From contig JACCWM010000106.1 of NCBI GenBank assembly GCA_013697635.1, positions 1-64,000 of the forward strand: DNA of 64,000 nt, read 5' to 3'. Source of the stretch: Lujinxingiaceae bacterium (GTDB lineage Bacteria; Myxococcota_A; Bradymonadia; Bradymonadales; Bradymonadaceae). Position numbers and translations under genes: made by a program. The notes beneath the pieces were generated by a model that saw nothing but the letters and a program-made list of their open reading frames with translations, was not told the origin of the DNA and did not search any database. The stretch's first letter is position 1; the number at the start of each line of letters is the position of its first letter. Shown here piece after piece: positions 1,545 to 16,647 of this stretch.

Positions 1545-3233
1545 TTAGAGCGTGAAGTGCCCGGCCCAGATCAGGTAGCCAGCCGCCATTGCGAGCAAAA
1601 CGAGCGTCGCTACAACCCAGATCAGCTTTGAGCCGGGCGAGCTCGCCAACATGTCATCGGACTCATCCGGTGCATGGGCATCGGAGGCCCACTCCCACTT
1701 TTCCAACTTGCCGTGTTCGCCGGAAGCGTCGAGCTCGGAGTAGGGCGCGTTCGAAGAATGAACAGCCTCCTGGGTGGCCGAGGGCGTGCCGGGGCGAACC
1801 TCGTACTCGCCGGTGGTGAAAGCACGGTCGACCGACTCGTCGGCGATCTTGCTGTTCGCGGGTTTTTTCTCGGGCTCCGAGACGATCGGCTTGGGTCGGG
1901 TGAGCAAAAATATCTCTTGCTCAGGTGGTGCAGGCTCGAGCACGGTCAGAATGGCCGAAATGCTGCTCGGATCGGGTGCAAGCCCCGGAGGTGGACCCTC
2001 GAAGACTTCGTCGAGCAACAAGATCATGTCCGATCCGTCGTTGAGACCGGAGCGTGAAGAACCCTGGCGTACGGGCTCTCGAGGCTTTCCTTTGGCCCTG
2101 TCAAACGGGATCGCGTCAAAGGGCGGCGATCCTGCGGCAGACAGCGGTGTGTTGTGCCTGGGCTTGGACTCGGGCTTCTTGGCTGAAAAGAGCGGGGCGT
2201 CGACCGCCATCAACGAGAGTGTGTTGGGCCGTGACAATTCGCGCGGCTCACTTGGATCGCCGTCGTGTTCGCTGGCCATCATCTCGATGGTGGGCGGCTC
2301 GATCTCGTTGACCTCGGGCTTGCCGATGGTGAAGAGCGGGGCATGCTTGGAGAAGTCGCCGTTGAGCGCCGCGAGAAACTCGGCGGCCGATTGGAAACGG
2401 TCGGGTTTCTCCTTTTGCAGCGCTTTGAGCACGATACGCTCGAGCAGCGATCCTTTTAGACCCGCGTCGTCGAAGGCCGGAATGGGGTCAAAGAGATGGC
2501 TGCGCATGATCTTGACCGGATTGCTGCCGAAGTAGGGCGGGCGGCCGCTGGCCATCTCGTACATGATCACGCCAAGCGCGTAGATGTCGGTCAACATGTC
2601 GACCTCCTCGCCGGCAGCCTGCTCGGGCGACATGTAGGCTGGCGTACCCACGGTGCTGCCGAGCATCGTCAACTGGCGAGCGGGTGGGGCGCCACTGTCG
2701 CCGGCGTCGGGCATCGAGGCGAATTTGGCGATGCCGAAATCGAGCACCTTGACGAAGTCGGTCTCGCCGCCGACGACTGACAAGAAGACGTTCTCGGGTT
2801 TGAGGTCGCGGTGCACGATGCCGTTGTCGTGGGCTTCGCTCAAGCTCTTGAGCGCCTGGCGCGCGATGCGAAAGATGCGATCGACCGAGAGTTTCTTCTC
2901 GCGCCTGAGCAAATCGGCCAGATCCTCGCCCTGCAGATACTCCATGACGATGAAGAGAAAATCCTCGTGGCGGCCGTAGTCGTGGATGGTAATGGTGTTG
3001 GGATGACGCAGTCGGCTGGCGAGCTGGGCTTCGCGACGGAAACGCTCGACGACCTCAGCGCTCGTCAAGAATTTTGGCGGCAACACCTTGATCGCGACGT
3101 CGCGATCGATGTTGAGCTGGCGCCCACGGTAGACCGTTCCGAAGCCGCCGCGGCCGATCTCGTTGGTGATCGTGTAGCGCTCCGCCAGGACGGTCCCGTG
3201 TGCCAATGTGCTGGTGCTGTTGCTCATAGCCAT
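1545..3233 (-). CDS. Eukaryotic-type Ser/Thr protein kinase with C-terminal membrane anchor
   Basis: The protein is about 562 residues if it starts at the ATG at 3233; an ORF extension to 3287 has no family support. The kinase domain is at residues 20-290: glycine loop GRGGFGTVY (27-35), ATP-binding Lys49, catalytic HRDLKPEN (141-148), DFG (166-168) and a substrate-lobe TPAYMSPEQ. All key catalytic residues are present, so it should be active. A low-complexity linker of about 240 residues follows, ending in a hydrophobic segment (LIWVVATLVLLAMAAGYLIW) that should anchor the protein in the inner membrane with the kinase in the cytoplasm. There is no PASTA or other recognisable sensor domain. 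The signal and substrates are unknown. Confidence 0.9.
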   Translation of the reverse strand: MAMSNSTSTLAHGTVLAERYTITNEIGRGGFGTVYRGRQLNIDRDVAIKVLPPKFLTSAEVVERFRREAQLASRLRHPNTITIHDYGRHEDFLFIVMEYLQGEDLADLLRREKKLSVDRIFRIARQALKSLSEAHDNGIVHRDLKPENVFLSVVGGETDFVKVLDFGIAKFASMPDAGDSGAPPARQLTMLGSTVGTPAYMSPEQAAGEEVDMLTDIYALGVIMYEMASGRPPYFGSNPVKIMRSHLFDPIPAFDDAGLKGSLLERIVLKALQKEKPDRFQSAAEFLAALNGDFSKHAPLFTIGKPEVNEIEPPTIEMMASEHDGDPSEPRELSRPNTLSLMAVDAPLFSAKKPESKPRHNTPLSAAGSPPFDAIPFDRAKGKPREPVRQGSSRSGLNDGSDMILLLDEVFEGPPPGLAPDPSSISAILTVLEPAPPEQEIFLLTRPKPIVSEPEKKPANSKIADESVDRAFTTGEYEVRPGTPSATQEAVHSSNAPYSELDASGEHGKLEKWEWASDAHAPDESDDMLASSPGSKLIWVVATLVLLAMAAGYLIWAGHFTL

Positions 3234-3452
3234 GACGCCGGGCAACTCGGGACGCCGACACCACCATGCCCAGATGAGTGTTGGCACTTCATGTCACTGT
3301 CGATTTTGTGTATCAGGGCTTGAAGACCTGGAACTACCATAAGGATAGCGAGGGCCAGGAAGCAAGACAATCACCAATTTCTTTCGCCACCACAGGCTCA
3401 ACCAGGCAATGTGTCATCTGCAGGCCGAGGCGGTCTGAATTGGAAAGTTGTT

Positions 3453-5354
3453 ATGAATCAAGATGTTGCGCGTTTTCTGGCGGGCGTTGCAGGCGCGGCG
3501 CTTGGCGAGGCCTTCGATAGGGCCAGGCCGCAAGCCTCCGTGCGTGCCGCGCTTGCCCCGATCCTCGAGAGCTCGGTGCTCGAACAGTGGCTTGTGCGCG
3601 TGGAGGCGAGCTGGTGGAGCGCGGCCAACCCCGGGCCACTGCACCGCGTGGCCGAGCACTACGCGCAAGCACAACGAAGGCTCGCCGGCATGTATCTGAC
3701 GCCCCCGTGGCTTGCCGATGCGATGGCAGCCACCCTCGAGAGTTGGCCGGGCGGCGCCGTGATCGATTTGAGCGCTGGTGGCGGGGCGTTGTTAGTCGCG
3801 GCGGCGGCACGAATGCCGGGGCTGCAGGCCGTCGGCGTCGAGTTGCGCCCGGGCCTCGCGATTGCTGCGGCGTTGGCGCTGTTCAATGTGCGCCGCACCC
3901 AGTCGTCGAGCGAGCGCCATGGCCTAAGCGATCGGATCTATGTCGCGGACGGCTTGAGCCATGATGGTCCCTGGGTCCAAGCCGAGGCGCCGATCACGGC
4001 CGTGCTGGGAAACCCGCCCTATGTCGGTGAGAAGGGAAACCGCGCGCTGTTTGACGCGATCAAGCGCGATCACCGGCACATGGCGCGCTGGTTTGGCCCA
4101 CGTATGGACCTGCTTTACTTGTTTTTTCATCGCGCGCTCGACCTCTTGGAGCCCGGCGGCCGCCTGATCTTTTTGACCAGTGAGTATTGGTTGACCGCGA
4201 GCGGTGCAGCAAAGCTGCGCGACGATCTGGCCACGCGCACCACCGCCGAGTTGTTTGCCACCTTCGACGCGCGCCTCTTCGCCGATGCGCCGGGTCACCA
4301 CTCGTTGCTCAGTGTTTTTCGCCGAGGGGTAGGCCAATCATCGGTTGCCAGGGCGCTGCGCGTTCAAACGCAGGCGCTCTCGACGCTTGATACCTTTCTC
4401 GAAGACGCGCTGGCCGAGCGCCCCTTGCAACGTCCAGGCGTCGACTTCAACGACGTCGACCCATTTTCGCTTCGAGCGTCGCGTTGGACGCCCTTTGTCG
4501 ACGGGCCAACCGTGCTGTGGGCACGAAGACTCGAAGCAATGGCCAGCCCGCTCCATGCGTTGGCCCAGGACTATCAAGGTTTTGTCAGTGGCGCTGACCG
4601 CGTCACGCGGCGTCATGTCGAGATCTTGGCCAAACAAGACATCGCTGTTCGTATTGGCGATCCAATCTTCATGTTTCACGAGCACGAGATCCCCCAGGAG
4701 CTCGTCGCGCTCAAAGGACTTGTCTTTCGTCCCGTATTGCGTGGCAGCGCGATTCGCGCAAACGCGCTGCGCGTGGAGGCCACGAGCGAGGAGTTCGCGC
4801 TCTACCTCGATCGTACGCTCTCGGCTGAAAGCGAAGCGATCATCTCGGGCCACCTTGCCAAGTTTCGGGGTCTGCTCGAGCTACGCCGTGAGGTGCGCGA
4901 GGGAACCATGGCCTGGTATAGGCTGCACTGGCCGCGCCGTCGCGCAGACTACAGCGGACCCAAGCTCGTGGTCCCAAGGCGAGCTCCCCGGCCGTGCTTT
5001 TGCCTCGATCTTTCGGCGAGCGTCGTCTCGAGTGATTGCACCTACCTGGTCGCGCCGCCAGATACCAAAGACCCGGTGCGCTATCTGACGGCGTTGATGT
5101 TCTTGCTCAATGGCGCCAACACCGCTCGCTACTTGCAAGCATTTGGAAAGCGCAAGGGCCAGCAAATCGAGTTCTATTCCGAGCCACTTCGCGCGCTGCC
5201 CATTTCTGCTTGTCGGGTAGATGGTGAGCTTCGACTGCTCGAAGAACTGTGGGTGCCGGAATTGATCGAAGCATTCTGGCACGAGGTCGATTCGGTTCTG
5301 GATGCAGCATCGCGCGGCCAGGAAACTTGCACATCCGTCTCAACTATAGTCTAA
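3453..5354 (+). CDS. Orphan N6-adenine DNA methyltransferase (Eco57I/TaqI-like)
   Basis: The start is set at ATG 3453 (MNQDVARF) rather than the in-frame ATG at 3411. The protein is 633 residues. After YLTPPWLADAM it shows a SAM-binding motif I (DLSAGGGALL, about 105-114), the acidic VGVELRPG, and catalytic motif IV NPPY (187-190), diagnostic of N6-adenine or N4-cytosine amino-methyltransferases and typical of gamma-class adenine enzymes. The segment MDLLYLFFHRALDLLEPGGRL is typical of Eco57I-type methylase domains. The C-terminal third has HEHEIPQELVALKGLVFRPV and NTARYLQAFGKRKGQQIEF and resembles a TaqI-type target-recognition domain. No PD-(D/E)xK nuclease segment is visible and no endonuclease gene is adjacent. 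It may be regulatory or a restriction-modification remnant. Confidence 0.85.
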   Translation: MNQDVARFLAGVAGAALGEAFDRARPQASVRAALAPILESSVLEQWLVRVEASWWSAANPGPLHRVAEHYAQAQRRLAGMYLTPPWLADAMAATLESWPGGAVIDLSAGGGALLVAAAARMPGLQAVGVELRPGLAIAAALALFNVRRTQSSSERHGLSDRIYVADGLSHDGPWVQAEAPITAVLGNPPYVGEKGNRALFDAIKRDHRHMARWFGPRMDLLYLFFHRALDLLEPGGRLIFLTSEYWLTASGAAKLRDDLATRTTAELFATFDARLFADAPGHHSLLSVFRRGVGQSSVARALRVQTQALSTLDTFLEDALAERPLQRPGVDFNDVDPFSLRASRWTPFVDGPTVLWARRLEAMASPLHALAQDYQGFVSGADRVTRRHVEILAKQDIAVRIGDPIFMFHEHEIPQELVALKGLVFRPVLRGSAIRANALRVEATSEEFALYLDRTLSAESEAIISGHLAKFRGLLELRREVREGTMAWYRLHWPRRRADYSGPKLVVPRRAPRPCFCLDLSASVVSSDCTYLVAPPDTKDPVRYLTALMFLLNGANTARYLQAFGKRKGQQIEFYSEPLRALPISACRVDGELRLLEELWVPELIEAFWHEVDSVLDAASRGQETCTSVSTIV

Positions 5355-5400: not shown

Positions 5401-6492
5401 ATGGCGATGAACATACGCGCAAATTCATGGCGAGTACTCGTACTTGTTGCTTGCAGCGCTTTTTTTTGCGGCGCATGCAATCTATTCGTCGCGCTTGACG
5501 ATGCCAGTGTCCAAGCCGATGCAGACGCCTTGCTCCCTGACGTGACGGCTGACACCGACCTGATCGACATCTTAAACTTGGACGCCTCAGCCGCAGATAC
5601 CGATGATGCCACGAGCGCTGACGCCGATCCGGCTGATGTCGCAATTGCCATCGACGTCGAGCCCGATGTCGCCACTCCCGTCGACGAACGTGTGCACAAC
5701 GGTCTGATGCTCTACTACAGCTTTGAAGAGGGTGCAGGCGCCACGGCGCGCGATCGCAGTGCTCTCGCTCCGGCCATCGATCTCACGATCGGCGGGGCGG
5801 TCAGCTGGCTCGACAATCCACGCGGCGTTCGATTGAGTGGGGGTTCACTGGCTTCCGGGGGCGGTTCGGCGAAGCTCGCTGAGCGTGTCGCGGCAACAGG
5901 TGAGCTGACCTTCGAGATTTGGATCAAGTCCACCACCGTGAATCAGGGTCAGGGGTCGCTGTCGACGGCGCGCATCTTCAGCATCTCTCAAGCCGGCAGT
6001 GAACGTAACTTCACCTTCGGCCAGAACAGCGGCAAGCTTGAGATTCGATTTCGCACAAGCGCCGCCACCAACTCCGGCCAGCCTTTTTGGAGTATCAACT
6101 CGGCGTTCGACACAAGCCTGACGCACTATGCCGTGAGCTACGACGGGGAGCGCATCAAGCTTTATATCAACAGCATGCTTGTCGCCGACGACGCGCGCAC
6201 CGGTAATCTGGCGAGTTGGGATGCCACCTTGAACGTGATCATCGGCGACGAGTTGGGCGGCGGCTTCCCCTGGGCCGGCAACGTGAACCTGGTTGCGCTC
6301 TACGATCGCGTGCTGAGCGCCGCCGAGATCAGCAGAACTTTGGCGCCGGCGCCCCCTGATTCACCCTGGGTCGTGCCCGCGAGCCTCGCCAGACTAGAAA
6401 GGGTAGGTGGCCAAATCGAGCTCGCCGGCGGAGTCGACACCTTTGGCGCTGGCGCCGCGCACGATTTGTCGCAGCGAGCCAAAGGCGATTAA
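5401..6492 (+). CDS. Lipoprotein with LamG/concanavalin-A-like domain
   Basis: The 363-residue protein starts MAMNIRANSWRVLVLVACSA and has a lipobox FCGAC, so it is exported and lipidated at that Cys. An Asp/Ala-rich linker (about 30-95) precedes GLMLYYSFEEGAGATARDRS, a hallmark of LamG-type jelly-roll domains. The rest of the domain (TFEIWIKS, HYAVSYDGERIKLYINS, WAGNVNLVALYDRVLSAAEI) fits to about residue 315. The last 33 or so codons run antisense over the lasso-peptide precursor at 6394-6585, and this C-terminal tail looks unlike the rest of the protein. It is probably a surface or outer-membrane protein binding carbohydrate or another ligand; the ligand is unknown. An alternative start ATG lies at 5407. 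Confidence 0.75.
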   Translation: MAMNIRANSWRVLVLVACSAFFCGACNLFVALDDASVQADADALLPDVTADTDLIDILNLDASAADTDDATSADADPADVAIAIDVEPDVATPVDERVHNGLMLYYSFEEGAGATARDRSALAPAIDLTIGGAVSWLDNPRGVRLSGGSLASGGGSAKLAERVAATGELTFEIWIKSTTVNQGQGSLSTARIFSISQAGSERNFTFGQNSGKLEIRFRTSAATNSGQPFWSINSAFDTSLTHYAVSYDGERIKLYINSMLVADDARTGNLASWDATLNVIIGDELGGGFPWAGNVNLVALYDRVLSAAEISRTLAPAPPDSPWVVPASLARLERVGGQIELAGGVDTFGAGAAHDLSQRAKGD

Positions 6493-6585
6493 GCGGGGTT
6501 TCTCATAGCCAGAGCTTGTGGTGGGCGTGCGGTTTGGACGAGTATCTGCGTTGAGTCGACGTGTTGACAGCGTTTTGTTTTGCAT
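6394..6585 (-). CDS. Putative lasso peptide precursor (A protein)
   Basis: This encodes 63 residues, with GGAGAG about 9 nt upstream of the ATG at 6585. Residues 27-44 read YEKPRLIAFGSLRQIVRG. This fits the lasso leader pattern Y-x2-P-x-L-x3-G-x5-T-x-G except that Val replaces the usual Thr at position -2. Taking Gly44 as core residue 1 gives a 20-residue core, GASAKGVDSAGELDLATYPF. Its Asp8 could close an eight-residue macrolactam ring with the Gly1 amine, and the bulky C-terminal Tyr-Pro-Phe could act as plugs. The gene lies 97 bp downstream of an asparagine-synthetase-like cyclase on the same strand. No leader-binding B1 or protease B2 gene is in the window. Identification rests on the leader pattern plus context; processing and the exact core are inferred. 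Confidence 0.72.
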   Translation of the reverse strand: MQNKTLSTRRLNADTRPNRTPTTSSGYEKPRLIAFGSLRQIVRGASAKGVDSAGELDLATYPF

Positions 6586-6682
6586 CGGTCACTCTCCATT
6601 CAAATACCAGATGTTCCCAAAATCCTCAGGTGTCCCGCTGCGCCACACAAACATCAGAGGCCGGGCCGTCGGGGAACATGCA

Positions 6683-8554
6683 TCAACTTTTTTGCAGCCA
6701 ACCGAGCCAGACTTCGGCGGCGATGGTTTGCCACAGGGCCAACGAGCCCAAAAAGGGCCGTTCGACACCCAGCGTGGCCAGGCGGTAGCTTCGATAGACA
6801 TCCAAGAAGCGCTTGGAATCGATCACCTCCATCTGGGCCAGCCGCGAGGCGTCAAAGAGCGCCTCGATGCGCGCCGCTTCGCAGCGCGTCAAGGCCTTCT
6901 CAACCACGGCGTCAAAGCCTCCGTGTTTGCCACGTTGCACGACCGCATTGGGCAGCCAGCCGGTCATGGCCTCTCGCAAGAGTGCTTTTTGGCGGCCACC
7001 CGCGGCGAGCTGCTGTGGTTCAATCCTTAAACATAACTCCCACAGGCGATCATCAAGCATTGGATATTCAATATTCACACTATTGCGCCGTGCCTCGCGC
7101 TGCAGTGTGCGACAGACCAGCTCCCACTTCCAGGTGCGAAGCCTGCCCAGGCGCACCTCACCCCAGTTAGCGCCAGGCGCGCTCCAGGCAGTGTGCTGGG
7201 CTGGCTGCTCGCCATGGGGTTGGCGCACCCAGCGCTCGGGCTGGCGCCAGGGCATGGCACGATTGCTTGGGTGGCCGCCCGCGCCCCACGCACGCAGCGG
7301 CGCCAATGCACGGCGCAACTCGTCGCGAACGCCCAGCGACTCCAGTCCCCAGCCCATCATCTCGCGCGCCACAAAGCCCGCACCTGCGTGGCGCACCGCG
7401 CGCGCGAGCTCACCCAGGCGCCTGGTGCGCGCCAGGCTGCGCAGGTAATAGGGCGCCGAGCACCAAAGCGCATCGTCGGCGCCGTGGCCGCTCAAGAGGT
7501 CGACCGGGCCGAAGCGCTCACCAATCCAGCGGTGGTAGCCGTCGACATAGTACTCTTCGGGATGGAAGTGTGGCCCTGCGTGCAGCTGGCGCGCGTAAAA
7601 CGCCAAAGACTGCAGCGGCCAGCGCTCATCGATCGCATAGGGGTGCACCCGAATGGGAAGGGCGGCCTCGATTTCGCTGATCTGTGCGCTCTCGTCGGAC
7701 CGGGGTAGCCCTGGCGCCACCATGGAGACGACGTTGAGCGGGCGCTCGGGGCTGTAGCCGCCCCAGTGGCTCTCCAGGGCCGCGAGCGCCGGTGAGTCGA
7801 GTCCACCGCTCATGGCGACCACGCGCGGGCGAGCTTCGAGCGTATCGTAGAAGTCGCGCAGGCCATCGACGAGGCGCTGAGGCAAATCGTCGGCCGGGCC
7901 AAGTGGCGTTGTATCGGGCTGCCAGTAGAAACGACGTTTGGGGCCGACCGAGCCCGGCTGCCAGCGCACCCGCTCTCCGGGAAGCACGCGCTCCATGCCG
8001 ACGATGAAGTCGTCGTAGCCCTGATCGGTCGATCCGCTCAGAAATGCCCGCAGCCGGCTGGCATTGACCTCGGGCCGCTCGCCCATCCAGGCGCCCAGCC
8101 ATTCTGGATCGGTGGACAGCGCCACGCCCTGGTGTGCTCCGCGACCGGGCGCATAGACCAGCGGCGCCAGGCCGATCTTGTCGCGAAAGGCGTTGAGCAC
8201 GCCGCTCTCCATGTCCCAGACGACGGCCGTGACGATACCGCGCATGCGCGAGAAGGCCGATTCCCCATAATTGCGAAAGGCGGCCACCATCGTCTCGAGC
8301 GAGCTGGCCTCGATTGCAAGGCCCAGATCGCGGCGCATTTGCGCGCGGTTTCGCCAGTGGCCCACCCAGGCCACGGCCAGGTTGTCCAGGCAACCGAACT
8401 CGCCCGGGTAGGGCCTCGGGGCGGGCCGAAAGCCCACATGCAGCACATGGTGGGGCGTGCGATTGGAGACCATCACCGAGGCCGCAAAGCGCTTGAATAA
8501 GCCCCGTTGACCCACCCATGAACGCTCGCCGAAAACCACCAGAAAGTCTGCCAT
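6683..8554 (-). CDS. Lasso peptide cyclase-like asparagine synthetase homologue (C protein)
   Basis: The protein is 623 residues from ATG 8554 (MADFLVVFG); upstream in-frame sequence to 8692 looks non-coding. The N-terminal 200 residues resemble the class II glutamine amidotransferase half of asparagine synthetase. The N-terminal Cys nucleophile is missing, as is usual for lasso cyclases. The C-terminal synthetase half has the ATP-pyrophosphatase loop SGGLDS (249-254) and a later LLSGHGADDALW segment. Lasso cyclases adenylate the Asp/Glu side chain and join it to the core N-terminus. The adjacent downstream precursor gene supports this role over asparagine synthesis. Alternatives are a beta-lactam synthetase-like or other asparagine-synthase-related enzyme. 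Confidence 0.78.
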   Translation of the reverse strand: MADFLVVFGERSWVGQRGLFKRFAASVMVSNRTPHHVLHVGFRPAPRPYPGEFGCLDNLAVAWVGHWRNRAQMRRDLGLAIEASSLETMVAAFRNYGESAFSRMRGIVTAVVWDMESGVLNAFRDKIGLAPLVYAPGRGAHQGVALSTDPEWLGAWMGERPEVNASRLRAFLSGSTDQGYDDFIVGMERVLPGERVRWQPGSVGPKRRFYWQPDTTPLGPADDLPQRLVDGLRDFYDTLEARPRVVAMSGGLDSPALAALESHWGGYSPERPLNVVSMVAPGLPRSDESAQISEIEAALPIRVHPYAIDERWPLQSLAFYARQLHAGPHFHPEEYYVDGYHRWIGERFGPVDLLSGHGADDALWCSAPYYLRSLARTRRLGELARAVRHAGAGFVAREMMGWGLESLGVRDELRRALAPLRAWGAGGHPSNRAMPWRQPERWVRQPHGEQPAQHTAWSAPGANWGEVRLGRLRTWKWELVCRTLQREARRNSVNIEYPMLDDRLWELCLRIEPQQLAAGGRQKALLREAMTGWLPNAVVQRGKHGGFDAVVEKALTRCEAARIEALFDASRLAQMEVIDSKRFLDVYRSYRLATLGVERPFLGSLALWQTIAAEVWLGWLQKS

Positions 8555-8773: not shown

Positions 8774-9556
8774 ATGACACATCTACCTGAGGTTGATACG
8801 GCGCGCCTTGCCCCCTTTGGATTTGTCGGCTTTATGTCCGTTCTCGCGGTGCTGGCGCTGCTCAACGAGCATGCCGACGCCGGCCAAAAGGGCTCCCCGG
8901 TTACGGTCCACTCCCAGGCTCAGGCACAGAACTCGGGGGCCAAGGCTCGCAACCCGGCTGCACCATCCATGGCGAGCTACCACTTCGACCAGCGCGCGAG
9001 CCTGCTCTACGTGACAATTGGACAAGACCCATCGGCGCTCTTTAGCGCCATGGGCCACGACCACGTCGTGCGCGCTTCTCAGTGGCAGGGAAGCATGGAA
9101 TTGAGGGGCAATGCGGAGCAGGCCTGCGCGTTTGCGATCGAGGTTTCGGTCGCCGATCTGGTGGCTGACGAGCCGGCAATGCGCGAGCGCCTGGGCTTTG
9201 ACAAGCCCTTGACGCCAACCCAGCGCGAAAGCATCGATCGCAGCATGCGCGCCGCCGATCAGCTCGATGCTGCGCGCCACCCGACGATCACGGCCCGCTC
9301 GATCAGCTGCACGCGGGCCGTTGGCGCGGCAAACCTGCTCGATGTCGTCGTCGAAGTCAGCCTTCGAGGCCGCACCCAGGAGCTGCCACTGATGATCGTG
9401 ATCGAGTCTGACCAGGGCCGCCTGCTCGCCATGGGTGAATTTACGCTCACGCACGCCGACTTTGGATTCGAGCCCTACTCGGCATTCTTCGGGGCCGTTC
9501 GAAACGCACAAGAGATCACCTTCCACTTCAACCTCGTCGGCCAGATGCAACCTTGA
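8774..9556 (+). CDS. YceI-like family periplasmic protein
   Basis: The 260-residue protein has a hydrophobic N-terminal segment (LAPFGFVGFMSVLAVLALL) that acts as a signal or anchor, then a Ser/Ala/Gln-rich linker. From residue 75 it shows a YceI-like beta-barrel pattern: GHDHVVRASQWQGSMELRG, then a charged helix-containing insertion, HPTITARSI, ELPLMIVIE, and a closing HADFGFEPYSAFFGAVRNAQEITFHFNL. YceI proteins bind isoprenoid-like lipids or amphiphiles in the periplasm. The ligand here is unknown. The start at ATG 8774 has GGGAG about 8 nt upstream. It is divergent from the lasso cyclase across a 219-bp gap and followed by a P450 gene. Confidence 0.72.
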   Translation: MTHLPEVDTARLAPFGFVGFMSVLAVLALLNEHADAGQKGSPVTVHSQAQAQNSGAKARNPAAPSMASYHFDQRASLLYVTIGQDPSALFSAMGHDHVVRASQWQGSMELRGNAEQACAFAIEVSVADLVADEPAMRERLGFDKPLTPTQRESIDRSMRAADQLDAARHPTITARSISCTRAVGAANLLDVVVEVSLRGRTQELPLMIVIESDQGRLLAMGEFTLTHADFGFEPYSAFFGAVRNAQEITFHFNLVGQMQP

Positions 9557-11141: not shown

Positions 11142-14100
11142 ATGAAGTTGCGCAAGATCGAGATCATTGGCTTTAAGTCCTTTCGCGAAAAGGTCGTCGT
11201 AGAGATCGGTGATGGCATGACCTGCATCGTCGGACCCAACGGCTGCGGAAAGAGCAACGTCGTCGACGCGATCAAGTGGGCGATGGGCGACGCCTCGGCC
11301 AAGAGCCTTCGCGGCAACTCCATGCAAGACGTCATCTTCGCCGGCAGCGAGAACCACAAAGCGCTGGGCATGGCCGAGGTGACGCTGACCTTTGAAAACG
11401 ATCTCAACGCCCGGGCCGAGGCCTTGGCCGGTCAACAAGACGACGACCCCAACGCGCTTGGCGAGTCGATCCCGCGTGAATTTCGCGATCTCGCCGAGAT
11501 CGCGATTACCCGCCGGCTCTTTCGCTCCGGCGAGAGCGAATACCTGATCAACAAGGTCGGCTGCCGGCTCATGGATATCCAGGACCTGCTCGCGGGCACC
11601 GGCGTTGGAAAACAAGGCTATTCGATCATCGAGCAGGGCCAGATCGGATTCATTGTCAACGCGCGGCCCTCGCAACGGCGCCTGATCATCGAGGAGGCCA
11701 GCGGCATCACGCGCTACAAAGGCCAGCGCGATCGCGCCGAGCGGCGCCTCGAGCAGACCGAGCAAAACCTGGCGCGAACGCGCGACGTGCTCGAAGAGAT
11801 CAACAAACAGATGAAGAACCTCGAGCGCCAGGCGCGACGCGCCGAGGAGCACCGCACGCTGAGCGCGGAGCTCAAGGTGCTCGAGATCAGCGCCTTGCTC
11901 GAACGCCGCGCTCAGCTCTTTGGACTTCGAAGCTCGACCCAAAAGGGGCTCGACGAGCAGCGCCGCCTCTATGAGCAGCGCAAAGTGAGCCTGGCACGGC
12001 GCGAGGCGGGCTCGAGCGCTGCGCGCATTGAGGCTCACGTCACCGAGCAGCGCCACACCGAGGCGACGCAGAACTTCTACAAGCTCGATACTCGGCTCAA
12101 TCTGGCGCGCTCCAACCGCAATCACGGCGTGCGCAGCGTCACCGATGCCCGTGAGCGCCTCGAGAGCCTCCAGCGCGAGCGGGTTGGCCAGCAACGCCGC
12201 GTCCAGTCTCTGGACAGCGAGCTTGCCGGCGTGCGCGAGGAGCTCGCCGGCCTGCTGGGCACGCCCGAGGAGTCCGATGTCGACGTCGCACAGGCTCAGG
12301 CCTCGATTGGCTCGCTTCGAGACACACTTGTCAGCAAGCAACGCTTGCTCGACGAGCAGCGCGCGCGCTGCGCACAGGCTCGAGCGCGCCAGGAGCGCAT
12401 CGACGACCGGCGCGCCTGGATCGCTGCACAGCTTGGCGAGCTCGAGGCCCGCCAAGCGTCGGCCCGCGAGCAGGTCGATGGCGCACGCGAGGAGCTCGAA
12501 GATGCCCGACGCGCCGTCTCGCGCCATGCGATCGACCTCGAGCGGCTCAATGCTGACGTCGCGGCGTTTCAGATCCGCGCCGATGTACACACCAAAGCCC
12601 TGGCTGAGGCCCGCATGGCGCTGCAGGCCGGGGAAGCAGCCGCCAACCAGGCAAGTGCTGCCCGGCACAAGCAACAGGCGCGCGTCGAGAGCCTCGACGC
12701 CATGCGCCGGCGCGGCGAGGGTTATGCCGAAGGCGTGCAAAAGGTGCTGCGCTGGGCCGAGCAGCAGGGAAGGGCGGATATTCTTGGCCCGGCCGGCAGC
12801 TTCTTGGAGGTGCCCGAGGGCTGGGAGGCTGCCGCGGCCGCCTATCTTGGCGAGCGCATTGGCGACATCATAGTCACCAGCCGTCAGGCAGCCTTCGATG
12901 CTCTAAACATGCTCGCAGCTCAGCGCCTTGGACGCATCGCCTGTTTTGTGTTGGGCGACGATCGGACAACGCCTGGCGAGGTGGTTGGCGCCTGGCTCCA
13001 GGGCCTCGAGCTGGTCGAGTCGCTTGGCGATGTGCCGGCGAAAGGCGACGGCAAGATCGAGGCTTGGGCCACTGCGCGCGGAGACATCGTCTTTGCCAAT
13101 GGGCGCGTCGTCGGCGGATTTGTCGGCGAGAAGGCCGAAGGCTTACTTCGCCAGGCTCGCCAGCTCGAAGACCTGCGCCGCGAGCTCGTGCAAGCCGTCG
13201 TGCTCGATGAAGAACTTCGAGAATCACTTGAGCTTTTGCGCGAGGATGCAACGATTGTCTCCGGCCGCCTCGATCAGACCCGAAGCGCGCTTGCGGCGGT
13301 CCAACACGATTGTCGCGCGGCCGCTCACGAGCACGAGGCCCAGGAACGCCAACAAATACGCGTGCAAACACATCTTGAGCGCGTCTGCGCCGAGGACGTG
13401 GCGATCGTCCCGCTTCGTGAGGGACTCGCTGCGGAGCTCGTTGCCCTGGGTGATGCTCGCGAGGCCCTTGGCGCCGAGATGCCAGGACTTCAAGTGATGC
13501 TTGAAGGGCTCGGCGCCGAGGTTGGCGCGCTGCAAGCGCAAATCGAGCAACGAAACCTGCAGCTCACCGACACCAAGGTGCGCCAGGCCCAGGTGCGCGA
13601 GCGACGCCGAAGCCTCGAGCAGAGCCAGGAGCGACTCGACCAGAGCCTTCGCGGCGCGCGCCACCAGATCGAGCGCTTCGAGCGTGAAGCCGGCCAGCAG
13701 GCCGAGCGGCTGGCTCACTTCGAGAAGGTCGCCGTCGAGGCCGAGGCTGAAGCGCGGACTTTGGGCGAGTCCTTTGAGCTTGCCAGCGTGCAGATCAAGG
13801 CGGCCAAGGTGGCCCTCGATGCCACTCTTCTTGAGCTCCAGCAAATTGAGCTTGGGCTCTCGGGCAACCGGCGCGAGATCGAGGCGGTCGGTGCCCGAGT
13901 TCAAGAACTCGAGATCGAATCGCGTGAGAGCGCACTGGGTCTCGATCACGTCGACGAGCAGCTGCTCGAGCGCTTTGGCCTGAGCGCGCTCGAGGCCAAG
14001 CCTCTGGTGGCCGATCTCGTGCTCGCTGTCGCCAGCCGGCCGGGGCGGATCAACTACTTGCGAGCTCGCATCGAGGCGATGGGCGCGGTCAACGCGCTGG

Positions 14101-14696
14101 CGATCGAGGAGTTTGACGAGACCCGCGCACGAAAGCTGTTCTTGGAGGAGCAGCATCTCGATCTCGAGCGGGCTGTCGACGATCTGAGAAAGGCCATCGC
14201 GCGCATGGATCGCGAGAGCAAGAAGCGCTTCGAGGAGACCTTTGCTGCGGTCAACGCGAAGTTCCAGGAGGTTTTTCCCAGGCTCTTTCGTGGCGGGCGC
14301 GCGCGCTTGACGCTCACCGATCCCGACGATCCGCTCAACACCGGCGTCGACATCGAGGTTCAGCCACCGGGCAAAACGCTTCAAAACGTCACGCTGCTCT
14401 CGGGCGGCGAGAAGGCGTTGACCGCGGTGAGCCTGATCTTTTCGATATTCTTGCTCAAGCCCACACCGTTTTCGATCCTCGACGAGGTCGACGCGCCGCT
14501 CGATGAGGCCAACGTGGGCCGCTTTGCCGAGATGGTGCGCGAGATGAGCGCGACCAGCCAGATGATCGTCATCACCCACAATCGGCGCACGATGGAGGCG
14601 CCGCGCATGCTCTACGGCGTGACCATGGAGGAGCCGGGCGTCTCCAAAGTGGTTTCCGTGCGCCTATCGGACGTGGACGACCGGCTCGCTTCGTAG
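11142..14696 (+). CDS. smc: Chromosome segregation ATPase SMC
   Basis: The protein is 1184 residues, the normal SMC length. It starts MKLRKIEIIGFKSFREKVVVEIG. Walker A GPNGCGKSN is at 31-39. Long coiled coils (about 170-530 and 680-1010, rich in Glu/Gln/Arg/Leu) flank a hinge centred on residues 545-665. The ABC signature LSGGEKAL and Walker B SILDEVDAPLD lie in the C-terminal head. SMC homodimers with ScpA and ScpB load onto DNA near the origin and organise sister chromosomes. Neither scpA nor scpB is nearby. It is followed 160 bp later by ftsY, a common neighbour of smc in bacteria. Confidence 0.97.
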   Translation: MKLRKIEIIGFKSFREKVVVEIGDGMTCIVGPNGCGKSNVVDAIKWAMGDASAKSLRGNSMQDVIFAGSENHKALGMAEVTLTFENDLNARAEALAGQQDDDPNALGESIPREFRDLAEIAITRRLFRSGESEYLINKVGCRLMDIQDLLAGTGVGKQGYSIIEQGQIGFIVNARPSQRRLIIEEASGITRYKGQRDRAERRLEQTEQNLARTRDVLEEINKQMKNLERQARRAEEHRTLSAELKVLEISALLERRAQLFGLRSSTQKGLDEQRRLYEQRKVSLARREAGSSAARIEAHVTEQRHTEATQNFYKLDTRLNLARSNRNHGVRSVTDARERLESLQRERVGQQRRVQSLDSELAGVREELAGLLGTPEESDVDVAQAQASIGSLRDTLVSKQRLLDEQRARCAQARARQERIDDRRAWIAAQLGELEARQASAREQVDGAREELEDARRAVSRHAIDLERLNADVAAFQIRADVHTKALAEARMALQAGEAAANQASAARHKQQARVESLDAMRRRGEGYAEGVQKVLRWAEQQGRADILGPAGSFLEVPEGWEAAAAAYLGERIGDIIVTSRQAAFDALNMLAAQRLGRIACFVLGDDRTTPGEVVGAWLQGLELVESLGDVPAKGDGKIEAWATARGDIVFANGRVVGGFVGEKAEGLLRQARQLEDLRRELVQAVVLDEELRESLELLREDATIVSGRLDQTRSALAAVQHDCRAAAHEHEAQERQQIRVQTHLERVCAEDVAIVPLREGLAAELVALGDAREALGAEMPGLQVMLEGLGAEVGALQAQIEQRNLQLTDTKVRQAQVRERRRSLEQSQERLDQSLRGARHQIERFEREAGQQAERLAHFEKVAVEAEAEARTLGESFELASVQIKAAKVALDATLLELQQIELGLSGNRREIEAVGARVQELEIESRESALGLDHVDEQLLERFGLSALEAKPLVADLVLAVASRPGRINYLRARIEAMGAVNALAIEEFDETRARKLFLEEQHLDLERAVDDLRKAIARMDRESKKRFEETFAAVNAKFQEVFPRLFRGGRARLTLTDPDDPLNTGVDIEVQPPGKTLQNVTLLSGGEKALTAVSLIFSIFLLKPTPFSILDEVDAPLDEANVGRFAEMVREMSATSQMIVITHNRRTMEAPRMLYGVTMEEPGVSKVVSVRLSDVDDRLAS

Positions 14697-14856: not shown

Positions 14857-16647
14857 ATGAACGCTTGGAACTCGCTCGTATCAATCGCCGCAGGTGATGT
14901 GCCCGTACTCGCGCAAGCCGACCCGGGCGTAAGCAGCTTGTTGATCGTGTTGCTGGTCGTATTGGCTGTCGTCGCGCTGTTCTTCATCTTCACGCGCCTT
15001 CGCACCAAACACATCGACGAGGACGAGCTCGAGCCCAAGCGCCCCCGCGCCGACGAGGGACGCCCAACCGTCGACTTGCTTGCAGACCGCCCCGAGGTCG
15101 ACGCACCCGTCGAGATCCACGACGGCATGACGCTCGCGGAGGTCAAACGCGCCAAACGCAGCAAGGTCGTCGGCGACAAGGGAAAGCGCGAGACCGCCGC
15201 GGCGGCCACCGAGCGCGCCAAACGCGACCAGGAAAAACCCAAGGTCGACGAAGAGCCGCCGGCCGCTGAGGAGCCCAAGGTCGAAGAAGAGCCGCCGGCC
15301 GCTGAGGAGCCCAAGGTCGACGAAGTAATGCCGGCCGCTGAAGAGCCCAAGGTCGAGCAAGAAAAGCCCTCAACGCTTGAAGAGCCCTCCGGCTCGCTTC
15401 CTCGCCCCTTGCCGCGCCCGTCGTTCAAACAAGACGACAAGCCGGCAGCGGAGAAGTCACCGCTCAAATTCAAGGTTCCACGCCCCCAGGACGTCTTGGC
15501 GCCAAGCGCCGCAGCCGAAGAGCCGGTCACTGCTGCTGCGCCCGAGCCAGTTTCAGAGCCTGCGACTGCACCCGAAGCGCAATCCGTGGTCGAGCCTGTG
15601 GTCGAACCTGTGGTCGAACCTGTGGTCGAACCCGCGGCCGAGCCTGTGGTCGAACCCGCGGCCGAGCCCGAAGTTAAGGCCGAGCCCGAAGTGTCCGCGG
15701 CCGAGGCGGCCGTCGTCGAGGAGGTCAAGAAGGCGGTTCAAGCGCCCCCAAAGAGCCTTCGTGACGGATTGCAGAAGACGCGCACGGGATTTGTCGATCG
15801 GCTCGGCAACCTCTTCAAGCGCGAGCGCCTTGGTGACGACCTGGTCGAGGAGATCGAGGAGATCTTGTTTACGGCCGACATCGGCTCGCGCGTGGCCAAG
15901 AACATCTTGATGGCCGTCGAGGAGCACCTCGATGGAGACGACAAGAAAGACCCGTCGGCGATCTGGGCCTTCGTGCGCCAGTATTGCGAAGAGATCTTGA
16001 GCTCTCACGAGAGCGTGATCGACTACGACTCGGCCAAACCCTTCGTGATGCTCGTCATTGGCGTCAATGGCGTCGGAAAGACGACGACGATTGGCAAGCT
16101 TGCGGCCAAGCTGCATCGCGAGGGCAAGCGCGTGCTTGTCGTTGCCGGTGACACCTTTCGCGCGGCCGCCGTCGATCAGCTCGCTGTCTGGGCCGACCGC
16201 ACAAACATTCCCATCCACAAGGGCGAAGACGAGGCCGACCCCTCGTCGGTGATCTTCTCGGGCATCGAGCGCGGTGTGCGCGAGGGCTTTGACGTGATCA
16301 TCTGTGATACCGCCGGGCGCCTGCACACCAAGGTCAACCTGCTCGATGAGCTTGAGAAGATGGGCCGCGTGGCGACCAAGGCCATGGTGGGTGCCCCTCA
16401 TGAGACGATCCTCGTGCTCGACGCCAACACGGGCCAAAACGCCATCGCCCAGGCAAAACTCTTTCGCGAGGCGCTCGATATCACAGGCATCGTGCTGACC
16501 AAACTCGACGGCACGGCCAAGGGCGGCGTGATCCTGGGCATCTGCGACGAGCTCAAGGCGCCGGTGCGCTACATCGGCATTGGCGAGGGCATCGACGATC
16601 TGCGCGCCTTTCGCTCCGACGAGTTCGTCGAAGCCCTGTTCATCTGA
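14857..16647 (+). CDS. ftsY: Signal recognition particle receptor FtsY, with N-terminal membrane segment and long acidic linker
   Basis: The 596-residue protein ends in a canonical SRP GTPase NG domain (about 295-596): [11 protein letters not shown]-loop near 399, the [11 protein letters not shown] motif, [19 protein letters not shown] and the closing GIGEGIDDL segment. FtsY receives SRP-ribosome complexes at the inner membrane for cotranslational insertion. Unlike the E. coli protein, it begins with a transmembrane stretch ([19 protein letters not shown], about 28-46). A roughly 240-residue Glu/Pro/Ala/Val-rich linker follows, built partly from tandem repeats of 12 and 4 residues. The linker is probably an extended acidic A-domain. 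Confidence 0.96.
15241..15348 (+). repeat. Three tandem 36-bp repeats inside ftsY
   Basis: Three adjacent 36-bp units (15241-15276, 15277-15312, 15313-15348) encode versions of [12 protein letters not shown]. The third differs most (EVMPAAEEP). They expand the acidic linker of FtsY and are likely to vary in copy number between strains. Confidence 0.85.
15586..15669 (+). repeat. Seven tandem 12-bp repeats inside ftsY
   Basis: Seven consecutive 12-bp units of the type GTGGTCGAACCT encode VVEP or AAEP tetrapeptides in the FtsY linker. The units are in frame throughout, so length change would not break the gene. Confidence 0.85.

Follow-up and report, generated by a model that had tools for sequence, protein, structure and literature searches.

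The stretch of DNA analysed here (64 kb, hereafter the window) carries on its minus strand a small gene for a lasso-type precursor peptide (A) and, next to it, a gene for an asparagine synthetase-like cyclase (C), set between a methylase gene and smc (Table 1). The precursor ORF has a GGAG Shine-Dalgarno-like sequence upstream of its ATG and translates as MQNKTLSTRRLNADTRPNRTPTTSSGYEKPRLIAFGSLRQIVRGASAKGVDSAGELDLATYPF. In the numbering used for the Bradymonas system (PMC10368454), the leader has Tyr-17, Pro-14, Leu-12, Gly-8 and Val-2, so that the peptide combines what is expected of a lasso precursor, namely a YxxPxL-type leader, Gly1 and an Asp or Glu at core positions 7-9, with the marks of the bsf type, namely Ile/Val(-2) and a Ser or Thr as third core residue.

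Table 1. Features of the precursor-cyclase locus and its flanks, in window positions
Feature	Position	Strand	Remarks
Ser/Thr protein kinase (STK)	1545-3287	-	conserved on the left of the slot; not a pathway member
Eco57I-type methylase	3411-5354	+	borders the slot on the left in several relatives; adjoins smc where A/C is absent
LamG-domain ORF	5401-6492	+	antisense to the core-coding end of the precursor gene; overlap 99 bases
Precursor peptide A, 63 aa	6394-6585	-	ATG 6585, stop 6394-6396; orthologue family n=10
Core GASAKGVDSAGELDLATYPF	6397-6456	-	Gly1, Ser/Thr3, Asp8; YP conserved before the last residue
Core Asp8	6433-6435	-	predicted ring-closing residue, from spacing
Core Ser/Thr3	6448-6450	-	conserved; predicted kinase site
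Leader, 43 aa	6457-6585	-	YxxPxL at residues 27-32
Lasso cyclase C, 623 aa	6683-8554	-	Asn_synthase domain; from ATG 8554
SGGLDS PP-loop of C	7793-7810	-	motif kept
YceI-domain protein	8774-9556	+	divergent from C; same position in one relative only (G008)
Cytochrome P450	9679-11049	+	heme motif FGGGTRVCIG intact; between cyclase and smc, likewise in G013, G016 and G018
SMC	11142-14696	+	conserved right flank of the slot
ftsY	14857-16647		after SMC

The precursor and its cyclase

The earlier note, made from the DNA letters, had described this ORF, its leader pattern and its core exactly as we find them. The window holds the strict leader-plus-core motif a single time, whereas none of 100 simulated 64-kb first-order Markov sequences contains it, and a look for a better precursor near the cyclase found none. 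The NCBIfam model lasso_leader_L3 matches residues 27-45 with 17.1 bits, slightly below its cut-off of 19. Since Tyr-17, Pro-14 and Leu-12 stand as in BsfA, Gly1 and Asp8 are placed as a lasso macrolactam requires (PMC10368454), and the common spacing from Tyr-17 to Asp8 suggests a Gly1-Asp8 ring. The Val at -2, which the earlier note took to be uncommon, is ordinary in this lineage: Ile/Val(-2) is normal for Bradymonadales lasso precursors and has been shown to function with their B1/B2 (PMC10368454). The LamG-domain ORF that overlaps the core-coding end was seen in none of the slots of the relatives.

The cyclase gene can be read from ATG 8554 or, as a longer ORF with a TTG start, from 8692. 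The conserved start is the ATG, where MADF... aligns with MSDF... of the relatives; residue 2 is therefore Ala and there is no Cys2, the residue typical of glutamine-dependent enzymes. The protein has an Asn_synthase domain (97.7 bits) and a weak GATase_7 match, and is thus, as expected of a lasso cyclase and as the earlier note had it, asparagine synthetase-like, with the ATP site kept and the GATase Cys absent. In a tree, it falls with cyclases that belong to complete lasso clusters and not with the genome's own asparagine synthetases.

We considered whether the pair could instead be a plain asparagine synthetase, or some other amidotransferase, beside a chance small ORF. The general fold family is indeed that of AsnB and beta-lactam synthetase, and the best NCBIfam score is to TIGR01536; that score, however, is 79.5 bits against a cut-off of 267, whereas the true AsnB of this genome, encoded on contig C93, reaches 444 bits. 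The missing Cys2 and the recurrence of the precursor motif in 10 genomes at one and the same position leave this explanation extremely improbable. Neither the C93 protein nor a further asparagine synthetase-like protein on C102 was accepted as a lasso cyclase. Modelling the cyclase structure from seven sequences gave a poor result (mean pLDDT 48.9, pTM 0.44), which was set aside; the PDB matches of the model, AsnB, beta-lactam synthetase and carbapenam synthetase, merely echo the sequence result and were not counted as evidence.

A remote B1-kinase-B2 set and a second A/C pair

In lasso clusters B1 and B2 usually lie together with A and C, yet the chemistry does not require clustering. Neither gene was found among those flanking the window pair. 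The earlier note's claim that no B lies in 10 kb on either side therefore holds for the genes present, but not for the distance: the window begins at base 1 of contig C92 and the left flank is just 6.4 kb long.

The genome (6.2 Mb in 213 contigs, 99.45% complete) was searched for a PqqD-like B1 and a transglutaminase-like B2. With two matches each to PF13471 and PF05402, it has one lasso-type set, on contig C84, directly before rpsL, rpsG and fusA. This operon encodes a PqqD-like B1, an HprK-type kinase, B2 and an NTP_transf_5 nucleotidyltransferase. The B2 scores 51.3 bits against NF033537 (cut-off 33), the best PDB match of the B1 is the lasso B1 TbiB1 (5v1u), and the kinase, whose activity is predicted, retains the BsfK motif residues HGS, GESGAGKS and DD. 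The second PqqD (C15) was rejected as a lasso B1, being a PQQ-type PqqD above its own cut-off that adjoins a radical SAM gene, as was the second transglutaminase match (C36, 522 aa) as a B2, which belongs to another family and reaches 20.9 bits against the cut-off of 33.

The same genome has a second A/C pair on contig C117, with a cyclase 36% identical to the window's and a precursor (L013:4693-4950) that ends in YQKPVLCHHGKLSQIIAGGYGSGGDFLRQIPSDDD. The two leaders have a common frame, YEKPRL..QIVRG in the window and YQKPVL..QIIAG on C117; the C117 core has Tyr at position 3, and the kinase gene is retained. The end of C117 and the start of C84 hold the same tandem-repeat gene, with 58 identical bases of repeat that are absent from other contigs, and the C117 part of that gene contains FG-GAP repeats. 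Given this join, inferred from one common 58-bp repeat, and the gene order of Duan et al. (PMC10368454), C117-C84 very probably represents the bsf locus in this genome. The A/C of the window forms a second pair, apart from it.

The tree joins the cyclases of the window and of C117 as sisters (support 100/97); it contains long branches, which leave the order of duplication uncertain. The best match to a BsfD-type exporter in the genome is a 33% identical paralogue (G000:C86:11360-13015), and no exporter was seen in the slot. A dedicated lasso exporter thus seems absent from the genome, which counts against the pathway proposed below.

Conservation of the pair and of its separation from B

Profile searches of 379 genomes of the phylum, 21 of them from the family, found the window-type precursor in 10 of the 21 (88-106 bits) and in none of the remaining phylum genomes; other lasso precursors scored 22-39 bits in the same search. 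Eleven family genomes have orthologous A/C pairs, with the precursor read in 10 of them; in the eleventh (G019) the cyclase is truncated at a contig end. The carriers include Lujinxingia vulgaris TMQ2, with the slot core GATSKGVDATGGVDMDMPYPG (L073), from which the core of the relative G013 differs by one residue; others are ‘Myxococcales’ MAGs. Many relatives are fragmented MAGs, in which absence of a gene is weak evidence. In another family of the phylum, G240 (L124) encodes, side by side, two precursors of lasso-like type whose cores, GRTGRGGDFASLRS.. and GATGRGGDFASLRGNRS, are nearly identical.

On every contig of sufficient length, the pair lies between STK (often plus the methylase) and smc-ftsY, a synteny that spans five genera. 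In G003, G005 and G012, which lack A/C, the methylase and smc are adjacent with gaps of ~60-180 bases, and in G010 an unrelated gene takes the place of A/C. The P450 gene (four carriers including the window) is in none of the relatives' empty slots and possibly encodes a tailoring enzyme; the YceI protein (two carriers including the window) is a candidate accessory protein or a mere neighbour.

The ten slot cores align nearly without gaps as GA[ST]xKGxD[SA]xG....YPx, with Ser or Thr at position 3 in all of them, and the precursor family has 12 invariant columns. Mean pairwise identity is 0.64 in the core, 0.54 from YxxPxL to the cleavage site (with Y27 and P30 in this B1-binding part invariant), 0.39 in the cyclase and 0.17 in the N-terminal 26 leader residues; among eight precursor cores outside the slot it is 0.26. 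In a comparison of G013 with G016, 11 synonymous and no non-synonymous changes fall in the core, and 19.5 and 15.5, respectively, in the leader. The 11:0 ratio and the ranking of the core above the leader parts indicate, at the level of sequence, that the reading frame is under protein-level purifying selection, with the core as its best-kept part, constrained more than the leader. The earlier note had named absence of translation as a refuting condition; the strong purifying selection on the core speaks against it.

The same data bear on the idea that the pair is a relic, that is, a duplicated A/C from a lost cluster, now decaying or inactive. The sisterhood of the C117 and window cyclases indicates that duplication and reshuffling did occur, and the lack of an exporter would fit; however, the ORFs are intact in most carriers, the cyclase motifs are kept, the slot is fixed across five genera and the core has taken no non-synonymous change in the comparison above, which makes a relic very unlikely.

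The separation of A/C from B recurs in relatives. G013, G016 and G018 each have a single B2, on a large contig other than that of the slot pair; from contig positions, the distance between pair and B2 is no less than about 138, 160 and 31 kb, respectively. These three also retain, around that B2, a full A-C-B1-K-B2 cluster with an unrelated core. In G011, the sole lasso cyclase detected is the slot copy, which runs over contigs C312 and C61 (these overlap within the gene by 121 identical bases); neither A nor C adjoins the D-B1-K-B2 operon at rpsL. That this genome (93% complete) has its only detected A/C at the slot and its only D/B1/K/B2 at rpsL is strong but not absolute evidence. The B-loci of G008 and G014 adjoin contig ends and are not callable as free of their own A/C. 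A further A/C pair, with core GRTGNFNDGNSPNPRETPQ, lies on C145 of G002 (L205) with no B within about 8-9 kb, and the split may thus have more than one origin.

With B physically missing from the window locus, maturation could in principle be independent of B, a general protease trimming the leader or the cyclase taking an already short core. The poor conservation of the N-terminal 26 leader residues would suit this, as would pseudomycoidin, made without leader and leader peptidase according to the title of Zyubko 2019 (cited in PMC7533575). Against it, the conserved B1-binding part of the leader would be needless without B1, and G011 keeps B1-K-B2 though its sole detected A/C is the slot pair; we regard B-independent maturation as unlikely. 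Of the two options in the earlier note, B in trans is favoured over other means of leader removal, because there is a single B1-K-B2 set on another contig and the split recurs in relatives.

A probable bipartite pathway and its relation to known systems

The bsf cluster of Bradymonas sediminis FA350 is described as contiguous, with seven genes (A, B1, B2, C, D, K and N) and the relatives pcy, mmv, llb, lss and lvt (PMC10368454). The genes described here share with it the YxxPxL leader, Ile/Val(-2), a predicted Gly1...Asp8 ring, the Ser/Thr3 site and an Asn-synthetase-type cyclase, as well as a B1-K-B2(-N) operon, here on C84, that adjoins genes for ribosomal proteins and for an FG-GAP repeat protein. 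Unlike the contiguous bsf, the window A/C stands alone in the STK/methylase-smc slot without B, K or D, the B1-K-B2 genes being on C84; its core is of a different, strongly conserved family; and the accounts of bsf in PMC10368454, as far as they describe these loci, mention no second A/C locus. By sequence, then, the arrangement in this genome is a split form of the bsf system, which has been studied by experiment. According to Duan et al., the mature bsf peptide went undetected in heterologous hosts, and the canonical system's own product is thus itself unproven (PMC10368454).

Other systems offer partial parallels. Paeninodin-type lasso clusters comprise an HprK-like kinase, split B1/B2 and a cyclase. 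The present genes have the same composition as such kinase-containing clusters; unlike them, they are divided between two places, and the predicted target is S/T3, whereas the known kinases are described as targeting the C-terminal Ser (PMC10368454). As with the unclustered proteases of lanthipeptides, another RiPP class, a leader-processing protease is remote from the precursor and modifying enzyme (PMC8960859), but here leader-binding protein, kinase and peptidase are jointly remote and the split is syntenically fixed. Our literature search, which lay largely outside subscription journals, found no lasso cluster with a remotely encoded B.

From these comparisons we infer, with a probability of about 80%, a bipartite lasso pathway in which the window supplies A and C, and the B1, HprK-type kinase and B2 of C84 act in trans. 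The window locus would provide the precursor and its dedicated cyclase. B1, the leader-binding PqqD-like protein from the rpsL-fusA-adjacent locus, would bind YxxPxL in trans; the kinase would probably phosphorylate Ser3; B2, a Cys-His peptidase, would cleave before Gly1; and the cyclase would join Gly1 to Asp8, giving a lasso peptide of 20 residues, eight of them in the ring. BsfK phosphorylates Ser3, accepts Thr3, rejects Tyr3 and requires B1 for efficiency (PMC10368454). With S/T3 in the slot cores and Tyr3 in the C117 core, the kinase of this genome probably acts on the window peptide. In Bacillota, the RREs of co-resident pathways evolved leader discrimination (PMC13381572); here, by contrast, slot and non-slot leaders of one genome have the same frame, so that one B1 could serve both.

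The split arrangement and the nearly unchanged peptide across the family look like a real, maintained two-site pathway. Lasso searches generally seek A, C and B together, and split loci are likely to have been missed or discarded as incomplete. The split system also makes it possible to test whether several precursor/cyclase pairs share one B1-kinase-B2 set. No functional secondary metabolite is on record for the clade of predatory bacteria to which this genome belongs (PMC11509652). More tentatively, and at somewhat less than even odds, we propose that a nearly invariant phospho-lasso peptide with its own cyclase by smc-ftsY is matured by a remote, shared B1-kinase-B2 hub that serves several A/C pairs per genome, and that it may serve these bacteria as a conserved signal or internal molecule and not as a variable antibiotic. 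A core constrained more than its leader suggests such a conserved job, not an arms-race antibiotic.
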